DNA of 53,938 nucleotides from a virus. Positions 3,231-50,769 of the stretch are shown here, piece after piece (within the stretch, counting starts at the first letter, position 1; every line of letters begins with the position of its first letter). The translations under genes were made by a program, and so were the position numbers. The stretch spans positions 1-53,938 of the IMG/VR virus record IMGVR_UViG_3300044491_001751. One strand, 5' to 3'. The notes beneath the pieces are model-generated. The model was given only the letters and a program-made list of their open reading frames with translations. It searched no databases and was not told the DNA's origin.

Positions 3231-4288
3231 AAGTTGCCGTCTACTGCATTGCTCTTAACGAGGAGCAGTTTGTCGAAAAATGGTACGAAAGTGCAAAAGA
3301 GGCAGACTACCTCTTAATTGCAGATACAGGTAGTACGGATGGTACCCGTGAAACTGCAATAAAGCTTGGAATCAACGTAATAGACGTAAAAGTGCGTCCT
3401 TGGCGTTTTGACGATGCCCGCAATGCATCACTCGTAGCCATCCCAGAAGACATTGACTACTGTATTGCCCTAGACATGGATGAAATCCTACTCCCTGGGT
3501 GGAAGCAAGAATTAGTAAACGCCCATAAGAATGGCTGGACACGTCCTAGGTATCAATACACATGGAATTGGCTAGACGAGGCGGAAACTGTACCAAGTCT
3601 TCAATATGGTGGAGATAAAATTCACACGCGTAAGGGGTACAGGTGGACACACCCTGTCCACGAGGTCCTAAGAGCCTATGGAGAGACAAAAGAGACTCAG
3701 GGATGGGTTGGGCTGGAGATCCACCACCACCCAGACAATACAAAGTCTCGTGGACAGTATTTTCCGCTGCTAAAGATGGCTGTAGACGAGCAGCCAGACG
3801 ACGACAGAAACGCTTATTATTACGCTAGAGAGCTTTTCTTTCACGGTCTATATGATCAGGCCATTGTCGAGTTTAAACGCCACCTGAGCCTCCCTAGAGC
3901 CACCTGGGCCCCAGAGAGAGCTGCCTCTATGAGGTATCTAGCAAAGATGATACCCGCTGAGCGAGAAAAATGGCTACTAGACGCAATTGCCCAAGCTCCA
4001 GGGCGTAGAGAGGCTTTAGTCGAATTGGCTCAGCACTACTATGAAGAGCAGAACTGGGCTAGATGCTTAGAATATGCCAAAAAGGCTCTAGACATCAAAG
4101 AAAAGCCACTTGACTTCCTTTGCGAAGCTTTTGCTTGGGGTTGCCTCCCGTGGGATTACGCAGCAATTTCGTCATATTATGTCGGAGACAGGAAAAACGC
4201 CCTTATTTACGGAACTAAGGCTTTGGAGCTAGAACCGCAAAATGAGCGGTTGCGAGAAAATATGGCGTATTACGCCAAAAATGATTAG
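3206..4288 (+). CDS. Family 2 glycosyltransferase with C-terminal TPR-like region
   Basis: The N-terminal GT-A domain shows VAVYCIALNEEQFV, LIADTGSTDGT (nucleotide-binding) and ALDMDEILLPGW (D-x-D metal site), then HPVHEVLR, typical of GT2 enzymes. The C-terminal half is made of helical repeats (YYYARELFFHGLYDQAIVEF; ALVELAQHYYEEQNWARCL; ALIYGTKALELEPQNERLRE) that read as tetratricopeptide repeats and may bind the acceptor. The TTG start at 3206 is supported by GGGAGAG at 3194-3200. The stop at 4286-4288 overlaps the convergent stop of the whiB-like gene, so this is where the two transcription directions meet; no terminator is visible there. Confidence 0.8.
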   Translation: MAKKDQSLKVAVYCIALNEEQFVEKWYESAKEADYLLIADTGSTDGTRETAIKLGINVIDVKVRPWRFDDARNASLVAIPEDIDYCIALDMDEILLPGWKQELVNAHKNGWTRPRYQYTWNWLDEAETVPSLQYGGDKIHTRKGYRWTHPVHEVLRAYGETKETQGWVGLEIHHHPDNTKSRGQYFPLLKMAVDEQPDDDRNAYYYARELFFHGLYDQAIVEFKRHLSLPRATWAPERAASMRYLAKMIPAEREKWLLDAIAQAPGRREALVELAQHYYEEQNWARCLEYAKKALDIKEKPLDFLCEAFAWGCLPWDYAAISSYYVGDRKNALIYGTKALELEPQNERLRENMAYYAKND

Positions 4289-4737
4289 TTTTTGCTTTTT
4301 TGCGCGTGGTAAGCGTCTACAGCATTTGCACTAGTTCTACTCTGCCAAGTAAAGTGACAATCGTCACACCTAACTATGCGCATAGTAGCCCATCGGCCCC
4401 CGTCTGGACGATCGACAGTCGCTGTCTTTAGTTTGTCAGTTTTTGCTCGGCAATAGGGGCATAAAGGAAAACGCTTGTATCGCATTTCTTGCCCTTCCCA
4501 GTTGACAGATAGGGTATTTCTAATTTCTTGATAGTCCAATCCACCCCAAATGCCCCACAGCTGCTTGTTGTCTAGTGCCCATTGCGCACAATCTTTACGT
4601 ACAGGGCAGACACTGCAAAGTTTTTTTGCTTCGTATTGTTGAGCAGGCTTGTTTGCAAAAAAGTTGTCCATCTTGTCGGCGTGCTCTGGCTTGCCGCACT
4701 CTGCATCTTCGTGCCAGTCGGGACTATTAAGAAACAA
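4285..4737 (-). CDS. whiB: WhiB-family iron-sulfur regulator with C-terminal zinc ribbon
   Basis: The four WhiB cysteines are present: one near the N-terminus (EDAECGKP) and C-SVC-PVRKD-C downstream, followed by the WGIWGG turn that binds the housekeeping sigma factor in this family. These cysteines hold a [4Fe-4S] cluster sensitive to oxygen or nitric oxide. Unusually, a C-terminal extension has CPYC and, about 35 residues later, CDDC, a likely zinc ribbon. TTG at 4737 is chosen because GGAGG lies six bases upstream; the longer ATG at 4761 lacks a good site and overlaps the upstream gene more. WhiB proteins are confined to Actinobacteria and their phages, which sets the host group. In phages they are thought to reprogram host transcription. 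Confidence 0.85.
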   Translation of the reverse strand: MFLNSPDWHEDAECGKPEHADKMDNFFANKPAQQYEAKKLCSVCPVRKDCAQWALDNKQLWGIWGGLDYQEIRNTLSVNWEGQEMRYKRFPLCPYCRAKTDKLKTATVDRPDGGRWATMRIVRCDDCHFTWQSRTSANAVDAYHAQKSKN

Positions 4738-5065
4738 ATGGAACCTCCACAAAAGTGGCATCCCAGTCGTAGAGCTCGTTGTCTAAGTCGCAGTAAACAG
4801 GAAATCTTTCATCGTCGTCTTCAAAGTAATATCCACCTTTGCTGGTCCAACCTAAGTCAATAAGCCGAAAGGCCTCGCCAAGCGAGTCTGCCACGCCTTC
4901 GAGGCGGAGCTGCTTAGCGAGGGCCTTCTTGGCAATCTGATCTTGATCAAGATAGACATGCTCTGTGAGGTAGAAAACTACGGAATCGGAGTGTATTTTT
5001 CTGGGAAAATCGTCGCCTTCCCATACAAGCCAGATTGGCTCTGCGATTGTCTTCTTACGTCTCAC
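4727..5065 (-). CDS. Conserved-looking phage protein of unknown function (112 aa)
   Basis: No family recognised. The protein is acidic in its C-terminal half (FEDDDERFPVYCDLDNELYD) and has a basic N-terminus (MRRKKT). The start is GTG at 5065, directly at the edge of the palindrome at 5065-5081. The last codons contain the GGAGG ribosome binding site of the whiB-like gene, so the pair is probably co-expressed. Confidence 0.6.
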   Translation of the reverse strand: MRRKKTIAEPIWLVWEGDDFPRKIHSDSVVFYLTEHVYLDQDQIAKKALAKQLRLEGVADSLGEAFRLIDLGWTSKGGYYFEDDDERFPVYCDLDNELYDWDATFVEVPFVS

Positions 5066-5081
5066 ATATAAAACTTATATG
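5065..5081 (-). promoter_or_regulatory. AT-rich palindrome touching the GTG start
   Basis: CATATAA / TTATATG is a perfect 7-bp inverted repeat with a 3-nt centre that ends exactly on the first base of the GTG start of the gene upstream of whiB. It could be an operator half-site pair or a hairpin hiding the start. No clear ribosome binding site precedes the GTG, so a leaderless transcript is possible, but no strong -35 box is visible. Confidence 0.4.
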
Positions 5082-5114
5082 CGACTTAAGATAACCTTAC
5101 CGTAAATTACAAAA

Positions 5115-5606
5115 TCAGTTTACTGGCCATACATAATCGTATGTGTCTGGCCTAGCACCAGTGTCTTCTGGCCAATTAAATTGCGAATACCACTCGTAGT
5201 CTTTGTTAAGAAGTGCCATACGGTGGCTAGACGCTATCTGACCAAAAAGCTCTTTATCTTTCATCCATGCAGGTAGGCGGTGGCTGTCTTTAGTGATCCG
5301 ACCAAGCTTAAGTGCTTGCAAGTATGTAAGGATGGTTTTTTGGCCAATAGTGGACTTATAGCCTCGCTTCTCCCACTCAAGTACCATCTTTAGTATGTAG
5401 AGAGTAAGAGCGCCTTCGTGGCCACGCCACATCTTAACGGCGGGGTGATTACGCCAGCCTTTAGCTGTGCGGTGGTTGCCCTGTGGGTCCAGTTCCACAA
5501 GGTTCATTAGGATTTGCCAGCCCTCTAGGGCTTGCTTGTTTAGTCGTGCTCGGTCTAGGACCTGCGCAGTATCCGCCGAGCCAAGTAGCGGTACAAATGT
5601 TTGCAT
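5115..5606 (-). CDS. Pyrimidine-dimer DNA glycosylase family protein (Pyr_excise-like)
   Basis: The N-terminus MQTFVPL, then VLDRARLNKQALEGWQIL, followed by GWRNHPAVKMWRGHEGALTLY and a WEKRGYKS segment, matches the actinobacterial branch of the T4 endonuclease V-like family (PF03013). Members of the classical family excise UV pyrimidine dimers; for the actinobacterial branch activity is mostly untested. Length (163 aa) is normal. A sunlit-water phage would benefit from UV repair, which is inference. It lies close to the SGNH gene, with two bases between them. Confidence 0.65.
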   Translation of the reverse strand: MQTFVPLLGSADTAQVLDRARLNKQALEGWQILMNLVELDPQGNHRTAKGWRNHPAVKMWRGHEGALTLYILKMVLEWEKRGYKSTIGQKTILTYLQALKLGRITKDSHRLPAWMKDKELFGQIASSHRMALLNKDYEWYSQFNWPEDTGARPDTYDYVWPVN

Positions 5607-41925: not shown

Positions 41926-42693
41926 TTAGTTAGAGAGCAGCGAGTTGATTAGACTCATGGTGTCTTTAGAAACAGCCCCGCTAGAAACTAAAGCCTTTAC
42001 TCGACTACTAGCGTGTATGGATTCGATTGAATCACTAGACGCTGTAAGTGACGCAATGACTGCATCCCGAGAAGATTCGTCCAGTTCTGGTGCACCTGCA
42101 ATCCACTCAATCTGAGAGGCTGTGGACGCAATAATTGCCGTAGCTGGATGACCTGTGTTGAGTAGATCGTTGTGCTCGGAAACTTCTTCTAGAGCGTCTG
42201 TCTGGTTTAGAGTTGAGTACTCTAGGAAAGAGTGAAGCTCCCACAATATGGCATCGGAAAGTTCGGCACTCGAGCAGCTGTCAGCATATGCATCGTAAGA
42301 TCTAGAGGCAACCTCGGCTGCGGCAGACAGCCCAACCTGACGTGACCCTCCAACCTTAGAGTTATAGAGAGAAAGAACTTCTTCGATTTCATCTGAAGTC
42401 AAAACTGACTGAAGCTTTTCAAGTGATTGGGCGGCCTTTAGTGGAACACAGTTTGGCACCATGTCTCCGCCTTTGCCCTTTTTCATGCCAACTTGGACAT
42501 ACCCTTCCCAGCAAGGGTCACCAGGGTTCTTCTCCAAGGCAGCCTCGTCTTCGTGCTCGGAGTCCTTCATGAGAGTTCCGTCTGGCATGTAGTGATAGCC
42601 TTCAGGAGCTTCTTTTTTGCCAGCTTCTAGATTTTCTGCAGGCGCAGCGTGACCACCAGAAGCATTAATTACTTTGTCTAAGTACTCAGACAC
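41926..42693 (-). CDS. Head-module protein with CWEGY...VPNCVP motif (255 aa)
   Basis: The N-terminal third holds DPCWEGYVQVGMKKGKGG... and MVPNCVP, a short Cys-containing motif common in phage head or packaging-associated proteins of unknown function. Close to the N-terminus is NASGGHAAP, which is also found in the capsid protein. The rest is helical and Ser/Ala/Glu-rich. ATG at 42693 overlaps the dps stop. It may be scaffold-like or a capsid-associated protein. Confidence 0.55.
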   Translation of the reverse strand: MSEYLDKVINASGGHAAPAENLEAGKKEAPEGYHYMPDGTLMKDSEHEDEAALEKNPGDPCWEGYVQVGMKKGKGGDMVPNCVPLKAAQSLEKLQSVLTSDEIEEVLSLYNSKVGGSRQVGLSAAAEVASRSYDAYADSCSSAELSDAILWELHSFLEYSTLNQTDALEEVSEHNDLLNTGHPATAIIASTASQIEWIAGAPELDESSRDAVIASLTASSDSIESIHASSRVKALVSSGAVSKDTMSLINSLLSN

Positions 42694-43148
42694 TATCGAA
42701 CTCCTAGGAATGCCTTAATCTGCCATCTCCACTTTTTGTGCATGTCTTCGCGCTGAGCGAGGAAGTCCATGAGACCAAACTCGCGGCACTTTTCTGCAAT
42801 CTCCCCTGCTTCATGTAGACAGTGAATCATCATGTCATTGACACGAAGTGCTGACTGAAGCATGAACTGTACGGAGCTGCCATCATGACGCTCTTCTTTG
42901 ATACAGGAAAGCTCTAGGTAGTCCTGTAGTAGGTAAGGCGCTGGGTATCCAACCTTAAGAATATTTTCAGCAAGGTCGTCAACTGAGCCTTCGACGTCTT
43001 CGTACAGCATTCCGAAGAACTCGTGGTACTCACCGAAGTCTGGGCCAAGTACGTTCCAATGATACCCCTGAAGGATAAATCTGGTTGTAACGGTGTCAGC
43101 TAATAGGTGAGCTAGCTTTTCGCCTAGTTCTGGGTTTGGGTGGTGCAT
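42693..43148 (-). CDS. dps: Dps-family ferritin (DNA-binding protein from starved cells)
   Basis: The sequence has the Dps hallmark YHWNVLGPDFGEYHEFFG and YEDVEGSVDDLAE. Ferroxidase residues are H30, H42, D57 and E61; the spacings (12, 15, 4) are identical to those known for Dps-type ferritins such as the Listeria protein. Dps forms dodecamers that oxidise iron(II) with hydrogen peroxide, store ferric iron and often coat DNA. Length (151 aa) is normal. The gene lies directly after portal, one base apart. No positively charged N-terminal tail is obvious, so DNA binding is not assured. Confidence 0.85.
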   Translation of the reverse strand: MHHPNPELGEKLAHLLADTVTTRFILQGYHWNVLGPDFGEYHEFFGMLYEDVEGSVDDLAENILKVGYPAPYLLQDYLELSCIKEERHDGSSVQFMLQSALRVNDMMIHCLHEAGEIAEKCREFGLMDFLAQREDMHKKWRWQIKAFLGVR

Positions 43149-47581: not shown

Positions 47582-47582
47582 G

Positions 47583-47882
47583 TGGAGCTGGGGGGATTCG
47601 AACCCCCGTCCGATAAGCCATCGTCTGTTCTTCTACGTGCGTAGGCTCTACCAGCCACGGTACTGCGGTTTGCGTTTGCGGTCGCCACCGTAATGCTGTG
47701 TTCTATTTATTTAAACCCTGTGGCGATTAGTTAGAACTACTTCTACCAGAGGGGCTCAGCTAAGCAGCTAGAGCGAATGCAGACTGTGAGTTTGCGTTTA
47801 TTTTTGTTGCCCGATTCAAGAGGTACAGGCTTCTCTGCACGCTTCACCAGATTCAAACATACCGTCGAAACCAGTCAGCCCC
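47583..47882 (-). ncRNA. ssrA: tmRNA with 16-residue proteolysis tag
   Basis: The 5' end GGGGCTGACTGGTTTCGAC and the 3' end with a GGGGG-TTCGAAT-CCCCC T-arm and CAGCTCCA pair into the tRNA-like domain (GGGGCTG / CAGCTCC). GTTTG / CAGAC continue helix 2. The tag frame at 47810-47760 reads ATKINANSQSAFALAA then TAG; the -ALAA end is the signal for ClpXP/ClpAP-type proteases. The RNA is 300 nt, somewhat shorter than most bacterial tmRNAs; CCA is not encoded. It rescues ribosomes stalled on broken mRNA. SmpB is not encoded here and must come from the host. Confidence 0.93.
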
Positions 47883-48069: not shown

Positions 48070-48074
48070 CCTTG

Positions 48075-48146
48075 CTCTCCCCCGTGGATTCGAACCACGA
48101 ACCATTCGATTAACAGTCGAACGCTCTGCCGTTGAGCTAGAGGAGA
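48075..48146 (-). tRNA. tRNA-Asn (GTT anticodon)
   Basis: The 72-nt cloverleaf has acceptor TCTCCTC / GGGGAGA, anticodon stem TTCGA / TCGAA with loop CTGTTAA (anticodon GTT), and T-arm CGTGG-TTCGAAT-CCACG. CCA is not encoded. It reads AAC/AAT codons and lies eight bases downstream of the small basic protein. Confidence 0.93.
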
Positions 48147-48153
48147 TTGATGG

Positions 48154-48288
48154 CTACTTGTTAGTAACCAATCGACGCTTCGCAGCATCGAAAATCTTTG
48201 GACGCTTCTTTCTAGCTTTACCGTTCTTGCGGTCTGCTCCTGAAGTGTCTTTTACAGGAGCTGGAGCTCCACCCTTACCTTTTGCCAT
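48154..48288 (-). CDS. Small basic protein (44 aa)
   Basis: ATG at 48286-48288 behind AGGAGAGG; stop TAG at 48154-48156. The protein is Lys/Arg-rich with a long basic stretch (ADRKNGKARKKRPKIFDAAK) and a short Gly/Pro N-terminus. Such micro-proteins may bind nucleic acid. It starts 17 bases downstream of the terminator of the RNA gene and directly before tRNA-Asn. Confidence 0.6.
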   Translation of the reverse strand: MAKGKGGAPAPVKDTSGADRKNGKARKKRPKIFDAAKRRLVTNK

Positions 48289-48304
48289 ACCTCTCCTTAG
48301 ATCA

Positions 48305-48523
48305 GTAAAAGTATAACACCCCCGTATTTCTACGAGGGTGTTAAGAGTGAGTAGGTGGAATGCGTTTTACCACCAAGGCCTGGTTGCTTCGGTCTCTAAA
48401 GCCCGCTACTAAGCCTACCTACAGTTGGGTTACACCCAGACGTTACTCCCTGCAGTGCCTTACCACCCCGTGCAACTTTGAGGTTGTTCAGCCATACTCC
48501 AGCTTTTCCGTCGAATCGCTGTT
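48305..48523 (-). ncRNA. Unrecognised structured small RNA, about 215 nt
   Basis: A consensus promoter (48530-48557) and a strong terminator (48307-48342) bracket a stretch with no plausible protein: the longest frame has no usable start after the promoter. Internal helices on the minus strand include TGGGT-GTA-ACCCA, ACCA-GGCCT-TGGT and a long-range GTAGGT / ACCTAC. It does not match my memory of tmRNA, RNase P, SRP, 6S or the large phage RNAs (GOLLD, ROOL). It lies just downstream of katG, in the RNA gene cluster. Boundaries are predicted from promoter and terminator. Confidence 0.65.
48307..48342 (-). terminator. Factor-independent terminator of the small RNA
   Basis: On the minus strand AACACCCTCGTA-GAAA-TACGGGGGTGTT is a 12-bp stem (one G-U pair) with a GAAA loop, followed by ATACTTTT. 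It is the clearest factor-independent terminator in the window. Confidence 0.85.
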
Positions 48524-48529
48524 GGTAAT

Positions 48530-48557
48530 AGATTAGCACCTATTCAGTGCCTGTCAA
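48530..48557 (-). promoter_or_regulatory. Promoter of the small RNA
   Basis: TTGACA (48552-48557), 16-base spacer, TAATCT (48530-48535) preceded by TGC, an extended -10. Transcription should start near 48523. It is among the best housekeeping-sigma promoters in the window. Confidence 0.8.
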
Positions 48558-48563
48558 GTTATG

Positions 48564-48578
48564 TTCGCTCAGAGCGAA
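48564..48578. promoter_or_regulatory. Palindrome between katG stop and the RNA promoter
   Basis: TTCGCTC-A-GAGCGAA is a perfect 15-base palindrome, lying five bases past the katG stop and six bases upstream of the -35 box. It could be an operator for the RNA promoter, or a hairpin after katG; the lack of a U-tract favours an operator or processing site. Confidence 0.5.
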
Positions 48579-48582
48579 TTTA

Positions 48583-50769
48583 TTATACGTCGAACCTGTC
48601 GTTGTTCATGACCTTCTCCCATGCGGCGATAAAGTCAATGACAAATTGCTGCTGGCCGTCGTCTGAAGCGTAAACTTCAGCGTAGGCGCGGAGAATCGAG
48701 TTAGACGCAAACACCATGTCTGCGCGAGATGCAATCCACTTGACTTCCTGAGTCTTGCGGTCACGTCCCTGATACAGGTTGTCTAGAACTGGACTCCACT
48801 CGGTGTCCATGTCCAAGATGTTCCTAAAGAAGCATGGCTTGAGGACACCTGGCTGAGTTACCAAGTCGGATACAGCGGAGTTTGCGTGACGCACTCCAAG
48901 AGCACGTAGACCGCCGTACAGAGCAACCATCTCTGGAGGGGTTAGGCCTAGGAGAGCTGCCTTGTCGATTAGTAGACGGTCTAGCGAGTCCGCGTACTTC
49001 TTGTGGCTCCAGTTGATAAACGCATCTGCAACTGGGTAGAGGTGGTTGAATGAATCAACGTCTGTCTGCTCCTGAGTTGCATCACCACGTCCGCCTATGA
49101 AGCCAACAACAACTGGAACTCCGCCGTCGTTTGCAGCCTCTTCAACAGCATAAGAACCAGCGAAGACAATCAGGTCAGCCAAGGACATTCCAGACTCTGG
49201 CTGGATCTCCTTTAGCTTCTCGATAGTTGCAGCAACATCAGAGTTGACTGGCCAGCTCTTCTGTGGCTCTAGGGCGATGCGTGCACCATTCGCTCCACCG
49301 CGCTTGTCAGTGTTGCGGTAGGTTGATGCAGACGCCCATGCAGTGCGGATCAAATCAGTGGCTGTTAGTCCAGAGTTGTCCAAAGCAATGCGAGTCATGT
49401 GCTTCTGAAGGATGGTCGGGTGTGAGCTCGAAGGAACTGGGTCCTGCCACAGTAGAACCTCTGACGGAACTTCTGGGCCATGGTAGCGAGCACGTGGCCC
49501 CATGTCGCGGTGGGTCAGCTTGAACCACGCACGAGCGAAGACGTCAGTGAAGTAGTCGAAGTCCTCTAGGAACTTGCGGCAGATGCGGTCATACTCCTCG
49601 TCTCCGAAACGGAGTGCTAGGTCAGTAGTGAGCATCTTTGGAATTACGTCATCTCCGCCGTGGGCGTGAGGTGCCATGTCTCCTGGCTCAATGTTGATTG
49701 GACGCCACTGCTTTGCACCAGCAGGTGACTCTTCCATCTCCCACTCGTACTTATAGATGAGGCGTAGGTAGTCGTTGTCCCAGCGGGTTGGGTGAGGAGT
49801 CCAAGTAACTTCTAGGCCAGAGGAGATAGTGTCGCCTCCGTGTCCAGCTCCCTGAGAGTTGTTCCAACCAAGACCAACGTCAGCTAGGTTGTCATTAGCC
49901 TCTGGCTCTGGACCAACCTGTGCAGCATCGCCAGCACCGTGAGTCTTACCAAACGCGTGTCCACCAGCGATAAGAGCAACAGTCTCCTCGTCGTTCATGG
50001 CCATGCGACCAAAGGTGGTGCGGATGTCAGCGGCAGCAGCCTTAAAGTCTGGGTTGCCATCTGGACCCTCTGGGTTTACGTAGATGAGACCCATCTGCAC
50101 AGCAGCTAGTGGGTCCTCTAGAGTCTCGGCGTCGCGTGACTCGTCGTAACGCTTGTTAGCTAGCCACTCAGTCTCGTTACCCCAGTAGGTGTTGTCTGGC
50201 TCCCAGACGTCTGCACGTCCGCCAGCAAAACCGAAGGTCGGGAATCCCATGTCTTCGAGAGCAACGTTACCTGCAAGAATCATCAGGTCTGCCCAAGAGA
50301 GCTTGCGACCATACTTCTTCTTGACTGGCCACAGTAGACGACGAGCTTTATCTAGGTTTACGTTGTCTGGCCAAGAGTTAAGCGGAGCGAAACGCTGTAG
50401 GCCTTCGCCTCCACCGCCACGTCCATCTGAAACGCGGTAGGTTCCAGCAGCGTGCCATGCCATACGGATAAAGAATGGACCGTAGTGTCCGTAGTCTGCT
50501 GGCCACCAGCTAACAGAAGTCTTCATGACTTCTACAATTTCGTCTTTTACCTCGGAAAGATCTAGTTTGCCAAACTCTTCAACATAGTCGAAGCCCTCTT
50601 CGTAGGGGTCGCTCTTAGGGTTGCCCTTCAGAAGCGGGTCAACGCTAATTTGGTTTGGCCACCAGTCATTGTTGGTTGTGCCCATCTCGGCACTAGCACC
50701 GCCAGCAGTTCCCATTGGCATAGGGCACTTTGCTTCAGCGGAGCTGTCGTTTACGTCGTAGTTACTCAC
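48583..50769 (-). CDS. katG: Catalase-peroxidase KatG, complete
   Basis: A full 728-aa two-domain haem enzyme. Distal-site residues R102, W105 and H106 ([11 protein letters not shown]), the covalent adduct partners Y230 (LIYVNPEGP) and M256 (FGRMAMND), the proximal H271 ([11 protein letters not shown]), the Trp of EVTWTPHP and the Asp of LTTDLAL are all present, as is the Ser equivalent to Mtb S315. It removes hydrogen peroxide by catalase and peroxidase cycles and needs haem from the host. Start GTG at 50769 with AAGGAGAAGGA upstream, overlapping the 77-aa gene. It is placed in an operon with HTH and lysis genes. Such a gene is highly unusual in a phage. Confidence 0.95.

Follow-up and report, generated by a model that had tools for sequence, protein, structure and literature searches.

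A divergent manA-family RNA as a probable free-standing RNA gene in a predicted actinobacterial phage

The stretch analyzed here (the window) comprises the 53,938 bases of an IMG/VR virus record that carries terminase and portal genes, and its minus strand holds a unit of promoter, structured RNA and terminator that we read, with a probability of about 0.7, as the gene for a discrete RNA of roughly 180 nt belonging to the manA family (Rfam RF01745), which in an actinobacterial phage would be excised from tRNA arrays or made as a unit of its own and would act in trans. The host is probably an actinobacterium, since the window encodes a WhiB-family protein (4285-4761, minus strand; Pfam Whib, E = 1.3e-17). 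What is new is the context, namely a manA RNA as a free-standing gene that lies flush with tRNAs in actinophage-type relatives. The manA family has been listed as a riboswitch candidate from 2010 onwards; the search for a ligand would be the wrong experiment if the RNA is independent.

Family assignment and transcription signals

At Rfam default thresholds the window gave only a tmRNA and a tRNA, and the RNA at 48305-48578 was left without a match. In permissive E-value mode, 48518-48344 matched RF01745 over positions 1-192 of 192 (E = 4.4e-12), scoring 51.8 bits where the gathering score is 55.2, so that the default threshold misses it by 3.4 bits; a further search reproduced this score and returned no RF01745 match in 14 control genomes. 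Two relatives from the same locus, 80% identical, exceeded the gathering score (L046, 64.2 bits; L080, 60.8 bits), which suggests that the sub-threshold score of the window reflects the divergence of a true member. L028 also lay above it (55.5 bits), and 28 of 40 virus records contained RF01745 above threshold. R1, a covariance model derived from an alignment of 20 exclusively freshwater members (A1), scored the window RNA at 181 bits. Over all 188 positions it recovered the cyanophage manA RNAs of P-SSM7 (45 bits) and P-SSM2 (39.6 bits), and it matched S-TIM4, S-SSM5, P-TIM68, P-HM2, MED4-213 and P-SSM4 over the same length. Judged by these covariance matches, the RNA is a divergent member of RF01745, alike in its full-length match, helix order and reciprocal match by an independent model, and unlike in its slightly lower score and smaller inner P4 region. 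The earlier note had been unable to place it and had let its description as unrecognised depend on no Rfam family matching it; the permissive search supplied such a family, at full length and E = 4e-12. The manA alignment was updated in Rfam 14 (PMC7779021), and cyanophage S-CREM1 carries a manA RNA (PMC9964418).

All elements of the promoter proposed from the letters alone, TTGACA, a 16-nt spacer and an extended TAATCT box, were present on the minus strand, and the proposed terminator was recovered with its GAAA cap, although its stem has 13 bp where 12 had been counted. The sequence after the terminator hairpin is TACTTTTACT. Promoter, RNA and terminator are all conserved among relatives at 57 to 99% identity, and the 5' end of the window RNA, 48523, is a prediction from promoter spacing only. 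The 15-base palindrome described upstream of the promoter was likewise found. In 7 of 45 relatives it keeps a fixed spacing, 38-39 nt upstream of the RNA start, and it is retained in L007, whose katG ends about 700 nt off; L057, L055 and L054 have other sequence in its place. The dyad is possibly a regulator site. A role as katG terminator was rejected, as the minus strand shows no T-run after the dyad, which accompanies the RNA even where katG lies far off.

Table 1. Features of the RNA locus and its neighbours in the window
Feature	Position	Strand	Basis or remark
RNA unit	48305-48578 region	-	promoter, manA-family RNA, terminator
Dyad TTCGCTCTGAGCGAA, 15 bases	48564..48578	.	upstream of -35 box; possible regulator site
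-35 box TTGACA	48552..48557	-	kept in close relatives
Extended -10 box TGC-TAATCT	48530..48538	-	TAATCT at 48530-48535, TGC before hexamer
manA-family RNA	48347..48523	-	RF01745 and R1 matches, covariation; 3' end from conserved CUCAC; 5' end predicted
P1 hairpin, GACG loop	48500..48521	-	alignment fold
P2 closing helix, 5' strand GAGTA	48495..48499	-	alignment fold
P3 hairpin	48457..48492	-	alignment fold
P4 helix and inner hairpin(s), incl. TGGGT/ACCCA	48419..48455	-	alignment fold
P5 hairpin	48376..48416	-	alignment fold
P6 hairpin GGTGG-TAAAACGCATT-CCACC	48354..48374	-	alignment fold
P2 closing helix, 3' strand TACTC	48349..48353	-	alignment fold
Intrinsic terminator	48304..48343	-	13-bp stem and GAAA loop (48314-48343), then U-rich tail
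44-aa ORF	48154..48288	-	3' of terminator; not a constant neighbour of manA RNA
tRNA-Asn(gtt)	48074..48146	-	window copy of RNA about 200 nt away
tmRNA	47582..47882	-	Rfam default-threshold match

Fold, covariation and coding potential

For the minus-strand transcript, all 200 shuffles gave a weaker fold (z = -2.97), and the plus-strand fold of the same interval was no better than chance (z = -0.24). RNAalifold applied to a MAFFT alignment gave 39 pairs, 19 of them with double-sided changes; none of 500 shuffles reached any of the five measures applied, and in a partner-sliding control the paired cells fell from 97.6% to at most 45.4%. With 70 sequences, double-sided changes were found in 36 of the 39 pairs, a count that leans towards the model because these sequences were aligned to it. 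In the resulting architecture P1, with its GACG loop, comes first, and P2 encloses P3, P4 with its pair of inner hairpins, P5 and P6. Within P4 the inner hairpins vary in sequence and keep their pairing across relatives (e.g., GACCUUAGCGGGUC and GAUCUUAGCGGAUC), and only the second of them, TGGGT/ACCCA, is clear in the window copy. Of the two helices singled out in the earlier note, this one is real, relatives swapping the hairpin for other paired sequences, and GTAGGT/ACCTAC had to be given up: several relatives keep only three of its six pairs, and ACCTAC forms part of P6 and P2. Many unpaired positions are invariant in the alignment, and the invariant parts include the GACG loop of P1, the GGCUGAAUAA strand and the GGUAAAA loop of P6. 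A coding alternative was rejected, since each frame is interrupted by stops in most of 20 homologues. The description as a dedicated non-coding RNA is supported by its structure, covariation, own promoter and terminator, lack of a conserved frame and free-standing position in relatives.

Genomic setting of the relatives

Motif scans and nhmmer yielded 65 distinct full-length RNAs of freshwater/actinophage type and 102 of marine type, a collection whose proportions derive from motif scans and not from a random sample, with related contigs not independent of each other. A same-strand tRNA or tmRNA lies within 500 nt in 49 of the 65 freshwater/actinophage-type RNAs. Twenty of the 65 have the 3' terminus of a tRNA or tmRNA at their start or no more than a few bases from it, with AAACA directly after the tRNA call at most of these junctions; 11 stop 1-5 nt short of the next tRNA, and nine have a flush junction at each end. 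In L306 the three genes are contiguous (tRNA 4845-4916, RNA 4653-4844, tRNA 4581-4652), and independent Rfam tRNA calls agree. The same arrangement occurs in two cultured phages: in Corynebacterium phage C3PO the R1 match at 2418-2607 fills the gap between the annotated tRNA-Trp (ending at 2418) and tRNA-Ser (starting at 2608), and in Rhodococcus phage Francesca an unannotated RNA at 4979-5166 lies between tRNA-Met (ending at 4980) and tRNA-Lys (starting at 5168). C3PO, Francesca and L306 were outside the alignment used for R1. Neither the window RNA in a BLAST search of phages nor two relatives in BLAST searches of plasmids found a match, and the route to the cultured copies therefore led through divergent relatives. 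In these two cultured phages, whose copy between tRNA genes is unannotated, the question can be put to a direct test. In L143, upstream of 2794, about 230 nt separate a tRNA-Gly from the manA RNA and end in a structured-looking stretch (GCAGGAGTAACGAAGACGAAAGTCGCAAAGAGGGTGCAACTCCCTCTCAGTCCA), which may be another RNA.

Where no tRNA is flush upstream, 35 of 44 members have a TANNNT whose last base lies 3-5 nt ahead of the RNA, compared to a mean of 1.2 per offset, and a terminator directly follows the RNA in 36 of the 65. As far as sequence can define them, the RNA ends are constant, whether the RNA runs from its own sigma-70-type promoter to a terminator or sits flush in a tRNA array, which suggests two production routes that arrive at the same ends. 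What follows the terminator at the window's locus changes among close relatives. In the window it is the 44-aa ORF (to which a family search assigned no family); L004, L057 and L080 have tRNA-Asn there, and L032 and L046 carry different ORFs. Flush tRNA contacts, an own promoter and terminator and changing downstream genes together fit poorly with a leader that controls one gene, and the flush boundaries in particular suggest that manA is an independent RNA. In genome contigs of bacterial chromosomes, 111 pattern matches were obtained and none was confirmed by nhmmer.

Marine members usually begin at a sigma-70-type promoter. Among the 102, a start codon within 60 nt without a poly-T was found in 36, often that of gp32 or talC, and this is the point against a discrete trans-acting RNA; 27 have a poly-T without a close start codon, both features occur in 28 and both are absent in 11. 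Downstream, gp32 (22 members) and transaldolase talC (11) are the commonest genes, and others encode ThyX (at 159-387 nt), a phosphomannomutase-like protein or HSP20; some members stand directly before tRNA-Gly or tRNA-Asn, and the annotated gene that comes next in P-TIM68 is on the opposite strand. Many marine members thus look like 5' leaders of gp32 or talC, a leader role is possible in some marine phages, and cis control may exist in part of the manA family. In the 22 marine contigs with gp32, the RNA lies 26-85 nt upstream of that gene (e.g., L388:3178-4095); the T4 gp32 mRNA has a leader pseudoknot that serves autoregulation, which makes a link conceivable. Downstream of many marine manA RNAs (e.g., L443 after 1690, L378, L434) there is a conserved stretch, TTTTTTAGACCTAAGATGCAACTC...GGGCAGATGG, perhaps a second RNA element or a repeat. 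Annotated hypothetical proteins (T4-GC 428) overlie the manA RNA in P-SSM4 (PSSM4_169.1, L475:2562-2735) and S-SSM5 (SSSM5_127, L479:2505-2711), and both are probably misannotations.

Two known systems and one earlier report resemble this setting. The Bifidobacterium megaplasmid pMP7017 carries a manA copy found by transcriptome analysis near a transcribed tRNA array and tmRNA (PMC10832533). By that paper's description the copy, like the window RNA, lies on an actinobacterial mobile element with a tRNA array and tmRNA nearby, but the element is a plasmid and not a phage, and the paper, which briefly mentioned the adjacency of manA to tRNAs, keeps the cis-regulatory reading. T4 RNA C and RNA D are small stable RNAs packed beside tRNA genes in a phage tRNA cluster, as the window's relatives are; at 139 and 119 nt they are positional analogues only, and homology was rejected when R1, run with filters off on the T4 tRNA region, gave a best score of 3.8 bits (E = 0.53). 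GOLLD RNA is a phage-derived structured RNA that sits in tRNA clusters, flanked by tRNAs at either end (PMC6582537), but it exceeds 400 nt, and no GOLLD match was present in the region.

Proposed action and competing readings

Where the RNA lies in a tRNA array, host tRNA-processing enzymes would cut it out, RNase Z or exonucleases presumably acting on its 5' side and RNase P on its 3' side. The released molecule might then act in trans as a stable RNA, with the invariant P1 GACG loop, GGCUGAAUAA strand and P6 GGUAAAA loop conceivably docking to a partner common to actinobacteria and cyanobacteria. Such a partner would most likely belong to translation or RNA processing, because the RNA occurs alongside tRNA and tmRNA genes of phages. 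The partial literature searched contained no proposal of an excised or trans-acting manA RNA. We extend this reading to the whole family only tentatively, at somewhat under even odds: manA would then be a phage-borne trans-acting component of the tRNA/tmRNA set, excised by tRNA enzymes and directed at host translation or RNA machinery, not a riboswitch class, and the marine leader positions would be one transcription route.

An unlikely alternative, though the best placed of the others, is a cis-regulatory riboswitch or attenuator that would respond to a metabolite and govern whether transcription passes the terminator at 48314-48343 to reach the 44-aa ORF and tRNA-Asn. It can draw on the first report of manA, from marine sequences, two gamma-proteobacteria and cyanophages, which rated it as cis-regulatory and probably a switch (Weinberg 2010, PMC2864571), on the many marine members located 15-45 nt before start codons, and on the terminator 3' of the window RNA, whose ACACCC could pair with GGGUGU of P4. 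However, GGGUGU is missing in L007, L008, L055 and L028, all of which keep the terminator, and antitermination through this pairing was rejected as not conserved. The terminator shares no helix with the RNA and the energies add up in most homologues, the two structures hardly competing with each other in 13 of 14 (the exception being L054); no expression platform mutually exclusive with the aptamer was thus found in these folds. Relatives with tRNA-Asn or unrelated ORFs downstream, or placed between tRNAs without a terminator, do not fit this account either, and the marine downstream genes gp32, talC, thyX and hsp20 have no metabolic theme. The papers searched report no manA ligand. The manA family is filed as a cis-regulatory 5' UTR element, a label that was drawn from its location in 5' UTRs of protein genes and on which the RF01745 homology does not depend; the window RNA, in contrast, is free-standing, with a terminator, varying neighbours and relatives inside tRNA arrays.

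Somewhat less probable still is a 5'-end module whose compact fold protects phage mRNA or tRNA transcripts from decay without a sequence-specific partner. The RNA is nearly always the first element after a promoter and precedes very different genes, as such a module would; in tRNA arrays, however, it is internal and not 5'-terminal, in the window a terminator separates it from the next gene, and a passive role needs no invariant loops, yet many unpaired positions are invariant. A counter-defence decoy occupying a host nuclease or defence complex, for instance a tRNA-cleaving one, would suit, though only indirectly, a phage-borne RNA beside tRNA and tmRNA genes for which nhmmer confirmed none of the chromosomal contigs from the pattern scan, but it is very improbable, given that strong conservation from cyanophages to actinophages suggests a conserved partner and not fast-evolving defence, and that a copy also resides on the Bifidobacterium megaplasmid (PMC10832533).

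Upstream of the RNA unit the phage encodes a full-length catalase-peroxidase, KatG (Pfam peroxidase; 48583-50769, minus strand), and a ferritin-like protein of Dps type adjoins the portal gene (42693-43148, minus strand), so that one phage carries two oxidative-stress proteins. Related katG loci in IMG/VR number 38, and katG has been reported as a viral gene in an estuary (PMC13390420).
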